Notes under the pieces: model-generated
What the model was told of the DNA's origin: nothing
Databases searched by the model: none
Seen by the model: the letters and a program-made list of their open reading frames with translations, nothing else
Assembly: GCF_030388665.1 (NCBI RefSeq)
Contig: NZ_CP128846.1
Coordinates: 3,760,001-3,824,000 of the forward strand
Source of the DNA: Streptomyces flavofungini
Lineage (GTDB): Bacteria; Actinomycetota; Actinomycetes; Streptomycetales; Streptomycetaceae
DNA length: 64,000 nt
Direction: 5' to 3'
Part shown: positions 29,842 to 34,786 of the stretch, one piece after another
Layout: every line of letters starts with the position of its first letter
How positions within the stretch are numbered: position 1 is the first letter of the stretch
Made by a program: the position numbers and the translations under genes

Positions 29842-30258
29842 GGCTACTTAGTAGTCCTTTGTCTCGAACGCTCTGGCCCCGGAAGGCCCTGTTTTCTACT
29901 TCCTTCCGACCCACGCGGTCGGGCGTGTCGCAGTCCCGCTCACACAGATCTCCCGAAGGATTTCCCTGCTAGGGGCTGCGGCCCGGATGACCGCGGGTCC
30001 GGGGGAAGAAACCCACCGGGTGCCTGGTCGAGCCACCGCGCCGCACTTCCCGGAAGATTCCCGTACGTCCGCCACAGTGCTGCCTTACGGCAGATATGGC
30101 GACGAGTACCGTGGGACTCGCTTCCAGTCCTCCCGGCGGGAGGCGCGCAGCATCGGCACTCAACCGAGCAACCTGAACAGTGTGCCATACGTGGGACGAC
30201 GAAGGCCAATCGAGCCGCTTGTCAAGCGGCGCGCCCGCCCCTCCCCCACCCGGACACG
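29842..30258 (-). promoter_or_regulatory. S10 operon upstream region
   Basis: No gene is apparent in this 417-base gap. It contains the leader element shared with rpsL (29906-29930), a hairpin CTGCC-TTAC-GGCAG (30080-30093), and a TTGACA on the minus strand at 30220-30225 embedded in the palindromic GCCGCTT/AAGCGGC. No acceptable -10 lies 16-19 bases downstream of that TTGACA, so I do not call a promoter position. Confidence 0.45.
29906..29930 (-). promoter_or_regulatory. S10 leader copy of a shared str/S10 hairpin element
   Basis: A 6-bp stem CCGACC/GGTCGG closes a 5-base loop (CACGC, plus strand), followed by GCGTGTCG. The 25-bp element matches 34762-34786 in the rpsL leader at 24 of 25 positions, and in both cases a GAGCGGG and a CTGC lie just 5' of it on the transcribed strand. 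It is about 65 bases before rpsJ. Confidence 0.6.
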
Positions 30259-30301
30259 ACAAGAGGCCCCACCCGCCGTAACGGCGAGCGGGGCCTCTTG
30301 T
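30259..30301 (-). terminator. Terminator after tuf
   Basis: Perfect 12-bp arms ACAAGAGGCCCC (30259-30270) and GGGGCCTCTTGT (30290-30301) with a smaller GCCG/CGGC stem in the loop, about 50 bases past the tuf stop. It closes the str operon. Confidence 0.8.
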
Positions 30302-30352
30302 TGCGCTCAGTTCAGAGCAGCCGGGTCTCCCCGACCAACAAGCAAGGAGTAC

Positions 30353-31546
30353 TTACTTGGTGATCTTGGTGACCTGGCCGGCGCCGACGGTCCGGCCACC
30401 CTCACGGATGGCGAACTTCAGGCCCTCCTCCATGGCGACGGGCTGGATGAGCTCCACCTTCATCTCGGTGTTGTCACCCGGCATGACCATCTCGGTGCCC
30501 TCGGGGAGGGTCACGACGCCGGTCACGTCCGTCGTACGGAAGTAGAACTGCGGGCGGTAGTTGTTGAAGAACGGGGTGTGACGGCCACCCTCGTCCTTCG
30601 ACAGGATGTACGCCTGCGCCTCGAACTCGGTGTGCGGGGTGACCGAGCCCGGCTTGATGATGACCTGGCCGCGCTCGACGTCCTCGCGCTTGATGCCACG
30701 GAGGAGCAGACCGACGTTCTCACCGGCCTGGCCCTCGTCGAGCAGCTTGCGGAACATCTCGATGCCGGTGACCGTGGTGGTGGTCTTCTCGGTCTTGATG
30801 CCGATGATGTCGACGGTCTCGTTGACCTTGAGGACACCGCGCTCGATACGACCGGTGACGACGGTGCCACGACCGGTGATCGTGAAGACGTCCTCGATCG
30901 GCATCAGGAACGGCTTGTCGACGTCACGCTCGGGCTGCGGGATGGCCTCGTCGACGGCCTTCATCAGGTCGAGGACGGACTTGCCCCACTCGGCGTCGCC
31001 CTCGAGCGCCTTGAGCGCCGAGACCTTGACGACCGGGACGTCGTCGCCCGGGAACTCGTACTCGGAGAGCAGCTCACGGACCTCGAGCTCGACGAGCTCC
31101 AGGATCTCCTCGTCGTCCACCATGTCGGCCTTGTTCAGGGCGACAACGATGTACGGAACGCCGACCTGGCGGGCCAGGAGCACGTGCTCCTTGGTCTGCG
31201 GCATCGGGCCGTCGGTGGCCGCGACCACGAGGATGGCGCCGTCCATCTGCGCCGCACCCGTGATCATGTTCTTGATGTAGTCGGCGTGACCGGGGCAGTC
31301 GACGTGAGCGTAGTGACGCGCCTCGGTCTGGTACTCGACGTGCGCGATGGAGATCGTGATACCGCGCTGGCGCTCCTCGGGAGCCTTGTCGATCTGGTCG
31401 AAGGCCGAGGCCTCGTTCAGGTCGGGGTACGCGTCGTGCAGCACCTTGGTAATGGCGGCCGTGAGGGTCGTCTTACCGTGGTCGATGTGACCGATGGTGC
31501 CGATGTTGACGTGCGGCTTAGTCCGCTCGAACTTCGCCTTCGCCAC
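30353..31546 (-). CDS. tuf: Elongation factor Tu
   Basis: EF-Tu delivers aminoacyl-tRNA to the ribosome. The 397-residue protein has the G1 motif [11 protein letters not shown]3 [13 protein letters not shown]4 NKADM, and SALKALEG, then the two beta-barrel domains ending [13 protein letters not shown]. It follows fusA by 154 bases; this gap has a TTGACT at the right kind of distance for an internal promoter, but no convincing -10. Confidence 0.98.
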
Positions 31547-31700
31547 TGGGGTCCTCCTGTGGAGTGGTTCTGTACGCCTTACTTCATCGGCGCCAGGTGA
31601 TCTTTGCTGGGGTGCCCGGGGCTCGGGCCGTTCCCTCCCGGTAGGGGCTGGAACGACCCGGAAGCTCCGGAGTCAAGCCTAAAGCGTGTACTCGGGTGAG

Positions 31701-33866: not shown

Positions 33867-34337
33867 CTACCAGCGGTAGTGCGCGAAGGCCTTGTTGGAC
33901 TCGGCCATCTTGTGGGTGTCCTCGCGCTTCTTCACAGCGGCACCGAGGCCGTTGGAGGCGTCGAGGAGTTCGTTGAGCAGACGCTCGGTCATGGTCTTCT
34001 CGCGACGGGCGCGGGAGTAACCCACCAGCCAGCGCAGGGCCAGCGTGTTGGCGCGACCGGGCTTGACCTCGATCGGCACCTGGTAGGTGGCGCCACCGAC
34101 GCGGCGGGACTTGACCTCGAGGGTCGGCTTGATGTTCTCGAGCGCGCGCTTCAGCGTGATGACCGGGTCGTTGCCCGTCTTCTCACGCAGACCCTCCATG
34201 GCGCCGTAGACGATGCGCTCGGCGGTGGAACGCTTGCCGTTCAGCAGCACCTTGTTGATGAGGGAGGTCACCAGAGGAGAGCCGTAGACCGGGTCGATGA
34301 TGACCGGGCGCTTCGGGGCGGGGCCCTTACGAGGCAT
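33867..34337 (-). CDS. rpsG: 30S ribosomal protein S7
   Basis: S7 nucleates the 30S head. The 156-residue protein has [44 protein letters not shown] family sequence, [13 protein letters not shown] and [20 protein letters not shown]. It starts 2 bases after the rpsL stop. Confidence 0.98.
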
Positions 34338-34339
34338 TC

Positions 34340-34711
34340 TTACTTCTCCTTCTTGGCGCCGTAGCGGCTGCGGGCCTGCTTGCGGTTCTTGACACCCTGG
34401 GTGTCGAGGGAACCCCGGATGATCTTGTAGCGAACACCGGGCAGGTCCTTCACACGGCCGCCGCGCACGAGCACGATGGAGTGCTCCTGCAGGTTGTGTC
34501 CCTCACCCGGAATGTAAGCAGTGACCTCGATCCCGCTGGTCAGACGCACACGCGCGACCTTACGCAGGGCCGAGTTCGGCTTCTTCGGGGTGGTCGTGAA
34601 CACACGCGTGCAGACGCCACGACGCTGAGGGGAACCCTCGAGTGCGGGCGTCTTGTTCTTCTCGACCTTGTCCTGCCGGCCCTTACGGACCAGCTGCTGG
34701 ATCGTAGGCAC
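34340..34711 (-). CDS. rpsL: 30S ribosomal protein S12
   Basis: S12 controls decoding accuracy. The 123-residue protein has TPKKPNS with Lys43 and [13 protein letters not shown] with Lys88, the two positions commonly changed in streptomycin-resistant mutants; both are wild type here. It is the first gene of the str operon, with a promoter about 200 bases upstream and a leader holding the shared hairpin element. Confidence 0.98.
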
Positions 34712-34761
34712 TACTTCTCCGGTTTCTGTGTGCCGAATAGTAAAGCTAACCTGGAACGTCG

Positions 34762-34786
34762 CCGACCCACGCGGTCGGGTGTGTCG
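34762..34786 (-). promoter_or_regulatory. rpsL leader copy of the shared str/S10 hairpin element
   Basis: The CCGACC-CACGC-GGTCGG hairpin followed by GTGTGTCG repeats the S10 leader element with a single difference. It is about 51 bases before the rpsL start and downstream of the rpsL promoter, so it should be transcribed. Confidence 0.6.

Follow-up and report, generated by a model that had tools for sequence, protein, structure and literature searches.

The window, a 64,000-nucleotide (nt) stretch of the Streptomyces flavofungini genome, carries two copies of a 25-bp element, CGACAC[G/A]CCCGACCGCGTGGGTCGG, one before rpsJ in the S10 operon and one before rpsL in the str operon (Table 1). Comparison with related leaders and with published binding sites makes it highly probable that both copies are DNA binding sites for WhiA, which would head the S10 and str transcription units. 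This protein is mainly known for regulating sporulation and cell division. It combines a homing-endonuclease-like domain with a C-terminal helix-turn-helix domain, and solved structures are listed under its name as 8dy7, 8dy9, 3hyi and 3hyj. In the proposed mechanism the helix-turn-helix would read GACACRCC at element positions 2–9, and the 3′ part (C16 G17 K18 G19 and GGTCGG) would offer a second, clade-specific point of contact, possibly with the endonuclease-like domain. Bound WhiA would then tune transcription of the downstream ribosomal protein and elongation factor genes. We infer WhiA binding of the rpsL copy, and the 3′ contact, from sequence comparison. The sign of regulation at the window copies is likewise inferred, and the published signs differ: rpsJ expression falls in a Streptomyces venezuelae whiA mutant (PMC3781837), whereas Mycoplasma gallisepticum WhiA represses the rpsJ operon and senses ATP (PMC11701221).

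In gel shifts M. gallisepticum WhiA binds the core GAYACRCY at the rpsJ operon promoter (PMC11701221). Both window copies have this core at element positions 2–9, as do 86 of 92 element-bearing leaders from the class Actinomycetes. Chromatin immunoprecipitation sequencing (ChIP-seq) in S. venezuelae gave a WhiA consensus of GACAC and placed a peak at 75 bp from the start of rpsJ (PMC3781837); the window's rpsJ copy lies 65–89 nt before the rpsJ start. Most species that have kept whiA are reported to carry the core ahead of rpsJ, and Actinobacteria are among the groups with the rpsJ operon named there (PMC11701221). WhiA is also described as widespread in bacteria in which it has no known function (PMC3781837, PMC11701221).

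The rpsJ site is essentially known already. As far as we found, the rpsL copy, the 25-bp form, the presence of about one copy per str-S10 unit and the three sites in the genome of a distant relative, G418, described below are new. Literature searches, whose scope did not extend to supplementary tables or most subscription papers, found nothing that describes the rpsL copy, the 25-bp form or a rule of one copy per unit, and a search with the element's letters returned no paper.

Table 1. Coordinates of the element, its genes, the predicted promoters and a known leader in the window.
Feature	Position	Strand	Evidence
25-bp element, rpsJ (S10 operon) copy: CGACACGCCCGACCGCGTGGGTCGG	29906..29930	-	sequence match, genome scan
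WhiA core GAYACRCY (GACACGCC) within the rpsJ copy, candidate	29922..29929	-	core definition from PMC11701221
25-bp element, rpsL (str operon) copy: CGACACACCCGACCGCGTGGGTCGG	34762..34786	-	sequence match, genome scan
WhiA core GAYACRCY (GACACACC) within the rpsL copy, candidate	34778..34785	-	core definition from PMC11701221
rpsJ (S10)	29533..29841	-	
rpsL (S12)	34340..34711	-	
Predicted S10 operon promoter TTGGCC-N19-CACACT; predicted start ~242 nt upstream of the element	30179..30209	-	consensus scan; conserved blocks in 29 Streptomyces
Predicted str operon promoter TTGACC-N17-TACGCT; predicted start ~112 nt upstream of the element	34905..34933	-	consensus scan; -35/-10 conserved in 30 Streptomyces
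Known L17 ribosomal leader RF03132	13879-13935	-	Rfam

Occurrence and conservation of the element

The initial annotation had reported two copies with one mismatch, about 65 and 51 bases before rpsJ and rpsL. Sequence matching bears this out: the single difference is at element position 7 (G or A), and 64 nt (rpsJ) and 50 nt (rpsL) separate the element from the start codon. One hundred dinucleotide shuffles of the window gave no match at up to three mismatches. At the same threshold the two window copies are the sole matches in the whole genome (G000, 9,362,490 bases), where a reversed-pattern control found none. The 300 nt upstream of rplK, rplN, rpsH, infA and rpoB in the window contain neither GACAC nor GTGTC, and their best 25-mers are 8–11 mismatches from the element. 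This check left out rplJ and rpsM, whose starts were unrecognised; the whole-genome scan covers both. The element is real, and in this genome it is specific to the rpsJ and rpsL operons.

Relatives have kept it. A pattern search of 394 class genomes found 332 matching at up to two mismatches, with one or two copies per matching genome, and a reversed control pattern was almost empty. Either rpsJ or rpsL follows the element at 31 of the 32 loci taken from the genome and class searches, two of which are the window's own. An exact scan gave at least 120 matches; among the 80 listed, 53 stood before rpsJ, 26 before rpsL and one was cut by a contig end, and the titles of those listed were actinobacterial (Streptomyces, Micromonospora, Nocardioides, Brevibacterium, Arthrobacter, Frankia and others).

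To read leaders directly, 79 genomes spread over families were used, with S10 and S12 each located in 73. This gave 143 leaders from 74 genomes, five of which had one readable leader only. The core [CT][GA]ACACNCCCG was present in 92 leaders, at 23–328 nt from the start codon (median 73). Positions 3–6 and 8–11 were fixed in this search and are constant by construction; outside them, at least 90 of the 92 copies retain C16, G17 and G19, and positions 7, 15 and 18 have two main letters each. When one core mismatch was allowed, A3, C4, A5, C6, C8, C9, C10, G11, C16, G17 and G19 were invariant in 86 copies. The element has a conserved 3′ part, consisting of C16 G17 K18 G19 and GGTCGG. The motifs GAGCGGG and CTGC, which had been pointed out ahead of both copies, are present in the window and are not conserved across the class, where, apart from two positions at which G is preferred, the alignment ahead of the element is close to random.

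The distribution over the two leaders suggests a simple rule. Both leaders were read in 69 genomes: 21 have the element at both, 31 at rpsL only, 15 at rpsJ only and two (G195 and G376) at neither. In the rpsL-only genomes tuf ends 79–305 nt before rpsJ, and with so short a gap the S10 genes appear to be carried on the str transcript. The gap is 249–511 nt in the 13 two-copy genomes where tuf was found, so that the two ranges overlap slightly (249–305). For the rpsJ-only genomes, no tuf was found in the 600 nt before rpsJ, and their str units lack the element. In 67 of the 69 genomes, then, the S10 unit has an element or appears to be co-transcribed with a unit that has one. There appears to be about one element per transcription unit of the str-S10 cluster, with co-transcription judged from distance.

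Two further observations were made in these loci. An ATG right after the element opens a short frame (MTDEQ... or MTDEEE...) in the rpsJ leaders L076, L093 and L099, and in L099 it is in frame with rpsJ. Genome G017 has a second, divergent S12 gene (G017:C140:32188-32556, 56% identity to the query) beside the normal one.

Sister classes and the case for WhiA

A phylum search matched 3 of 146 outside genomes, all at three mismatches, and no ribosomal protein gene was seen by eye in the translations next to two of the three. A claim that the element is restricted to the class was considered on this basis and was overturned by leader-by-leader reading. The core ACGCCCGRNNNCGKGG occurs at zero or one mismatch in 6 of 25 rpsL leaders from other classes, where shuffles predict 0.25, and in none of 28 rpsJ leaders outside the class; tuf ends 15–228 nt before rpsJ at 18 of these 28 loci. 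Starts were missed at 5 of 30 other-class rpsL loci, 2 of 30 other-class rpsJ loci and 1 of 63 loci in a two-class sample.

Two sister classes are informative about position. In the class of genome G502, 26 of 31 leaders hold the core at zero or one mismatch, and the predicted start lies 81 to 274 nt upstream of it. The class of G418 has the core at up to two mismatches in 28 of 31 rpsL leaders, 27 of them with the motif 52–56 nt before the predicted start, and exact GAYACRCY is found in 21 of 28 promoters. In 28 of 31 loci a copy of the motif ends 1–5 bp before a TTGACA -35 box. Promoter-like scores upstream of the motif are no higher than in shuffles (12.3 vs 12.7), compared with 18.5 downstream, and terminator-like hairpins were seen by eye upstream of the motif at several loci. 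Because the motif precedes the -35 box and has no promoter above chance upstream, it is not transcribed from the adjoining promoter, and it is therefore read as DNA there. The initial annotation had placed the element in transcribed leaders, and in Actinomycetes it does lie downstream of the predicted start; the motif of the G418 class precedes the promoter. Actinomycetes and the class of G502 have largely retained the 3′ arm GGTCGG; the class of G418 has not.

Genome G418 was scanned with the class form GATACNCCCGGNNSCGTGK over 1,595,000 of its 1,617,804 bases, using a pattern that required CG[T/G]G. Three sites match exactly: one at rpsL, which the pattern contains by construction, one at rplB and one at tRNA-tuf. 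None matches at one or two mismatches and nine do at three; three shuffles together gave 34 matches at three mismatches and two at two. The tRNA-tuf site precedes genes for tRNA-Tyr, -Thr and -Met as well as tuf, and a TTGACA promoter follows it after 6 bp. At rplB the site follows a TATAAT box by about 31 nt instead of preceding a -35 box. The identities of rplB, elongation factor Tu and the tRNAs at these sites were confirmed. In G418 about 4.5 kb (L454, G418:C1:1132100-1136700) separate rplW from rplB and split the S10 operon, which apparently makes rplB the first gene of a new unit that has its own site. G418 also has a whiA gene with all three WhiA Pfam domains. The interruption at L454 holds an opposite-strand reading frame and another that, by eye, is twin-arginine-signal-like.

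The two described WhiA systems resemble the window in part. The M. gallisepticum rpsJ site shares the core GAYACRCY, the operon and a clade-specific motif downstream of the core, but it is at the promoter, its auxiliary motif is the -35-like GTTGT, and the protein is a repressor released by ATP (PMC11701221). The window copies are instead 112–242 nt downstream of their predicted starts, with a GC-rich downstream motif and a second copy at rpsL; rpsL and fusA appear nowhere in the main text of PMC11701221. The S. venezuelae regulon shares the GACAC consensus and the rpsJ target, and the 75-bp position of its peak agrees with an element downstream of the predicted start in Actinomycetes. Its consensus, unlike the window element, is five bases with no further overrepresented sequence across targets (PMC3781837), and the passages compared, outside the supplementary target table, make no mention of a 25-bp extension at either rpsJ or rpsL.

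Several observations weigh against WhiA binding. A promoter consensus scan of 88 Actinomycetes leaders, in which start sites are predictions, placed the best promoter upstream of the element in 50 of 51 rpsL rows and 32 of 37 rpsJ rows, so that the element is not at the promoter; the rpsL exception (L088) is a mis-assigned element, and L087 in the rpsJ rows is a false element. The rpsL promoter is usually TTGACC-N17/18-TANNNT with its predicted start 16–204 nt upstream of the element, and promoter and element are both strongly conserved in 30 Streptomyces. All 92 core copies are in the sense direction and none is antisense, unlike the two-way WhiA sites of Streptomyces (PMC3781837), although shared descent could explain a single orientation. 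Of the genes lacking GACAC and GTGTC in the 300 nt upstream in the window, infA and rpsH are WhiA targets in PMC3781837, which means that GACAC does not mark every reported WhiA target, and rpsL is absent from the main text of that paper. Only 2 of 41 leaders in the class-of-G502 set (40 plus L300, whose class was not established) fit GAYACRCY, and most have GAAAC or GGAAC. The stem of the element in this set also shows some covariation, as expected of an RNA hairpin, compared with 500 shuffles: nine further pair types against 5.9 (reached by two shuffles), 81.3% of cells paired against 77.0% (one shuffle) and a covariation score of 0.191 against 0.146 (17 shuffles). Double-change pairs number 2 against 1.9 (348 shuffles). 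The element may have an added RNA-level role in this GAAAC-type set.

RNA hairpins and other readings

One alternative, which we consider quite unlikely, is that the element is a 5′-leader RNA site for a ribosomal protein encoded in the S10 operon, acting by autogenous control through attenuation or a translation block. It would account for an element that is always sense in Actinomycetes and lies downstream of the predicted start there and in the class of G502, for the partial stem covariation in the latter, and for the element that nearly every S10 unit carries or appears to share. Escherichia coli controls the same operons autogenously, through the S10 leader with L4 and the str operon with S7 (PMC10931766). 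The E. coli sites are mRNA bound by ribosomal proteins, the str site being between the S12 and S7 genes, whereas no RNA structure is supported for the window element in Actinomycetes.

Compensatory changes in the stem, which the initial annotation had proposed to look for, did not appear: across 86 distinct Actinomycetes copies, none of the six pairs of the stem is changed on both sides. This stem is 82.4% paired, no better than shuffled copies (83.0%). The complete six-pair stem forms in 34 copies, an alternative CCCG/CGGG stem in 61, and neither in 15. Three hairpin models (the 6-bp stem, CCCG-N4-CGGG and CACGC-N6-GCGTG) were rejected because none showed a compensatory change. Between the element and the leader on either side of it, pairing was in weak excess only (z 2.8–3.6; three upstream windows and one downstream), a closing helix between upstream and downstream sequence was not general, a position-pair covariation scan gave nothing convincing, and windowed folding energies were only slightly below shuffles. 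Rfam has no match over the element at gathering level and, at E up to 10, only weak unrelated matches in the two leaders. Mimicry of rRNA found no support in sequence: likeness to one 23S locus of G000, taken with 1.5-kb flanks that cover 16S in part, is not above chance. The best ungapped scores, which measure sequence likeness, are 8–10 against a shuffle mean of 8.9 and maximum of 11 (20 shuffles, rpsJ form only). Conservation in the class lies in primary sequence, not in pairing, which fits a protein reading bases. Together with the untranscribed position in the class of G418 and the match to a known DNA-binding core, these results argue against an RNA site. The annotation's idea of a shared binding site is well supported. 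Its more specific suggestion, that a ribosomal protein binds the transcribed hairpin, is not supported.

Quite unlikely as well is a dual or clade-shifted site, in which WhiA would read the DNA core and, in some clades, a hairpin would add an RNA function such as pausing or attenuation. The GGTCGG arm is largely kept where the element is transcribed and not where it is upstream of the promoter, which favors such a site, as does the partial class-of-G502 covariation. But the stem is intact in just 34 of the 86 Actinomycetes copies, and clade-specific auxiliary DNA motifs, described downstream of the core in PMC11701221, could explain the 3′ arm. It is very improbable that the site belongs to a different DNA-binding factor sharing GACAC by chance: the conserved core is well longer than GAYACRCY, extending to ACNCCCGRNNNCGKGG, and the class of G502 departs from GAYAC, but a WhiA ChIP peak has been published at the same place before rpsJ (PMC3781837) and direct binding in Mycoplasma (PMC11701221).

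Other structures were seen in the same leaders. The 5′ part of the Streptomyces rpsJ leader (window 30027-30175, minus strand) is a separate structured RNA domain of about 150 nt, with pair changes in 29 species and one pair showing five pair types. It is a possible ribosomal protein leader; its covariance model found nothing convincing in 80 loci of other genera, and it has no Rfam match. In the rpsL leader (34711-34900, minus strand), RNAalifold on 30 Streptomyces pairs CTTGTGCC near the start with GGCACA-AG directly ahead of the ribosome binding site. This pairing is nearly invariant and hence gives no covariation evidence.

A possible wider role of WhiA at the translation genes

If both copies are WhiA sites, a broader picture can be sketched, which we offer tentatively and at somewhat less than even chance. 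The oldest role of WhiA in Actinomycetota may be in the translation superoperon and not in sporulation, with each str-S10-tuf unit keeping or gaining one extended site. Where the cluster is broken, between tuf and rpsJ in many Actinomycetes and between rplW and rplB with a separate tuf unit in G418, the new units would acquire their own copy. In Actinomycetes WhiA would act inside the transcribed leader, some 16–200 nt past the predicted rpsL start, possibly holding back or coupling RNA polymerase according to energy status.

The element also illustrates that a well-conserved palindrome in a leader does not by itself mean a regulatory RNA. A class-wide 25-bp site at rpsJ and rpsL, together with a set of three sites in a small-genome relative, suggests that WhiA may have a core housekeeping role in setting translation capacity.

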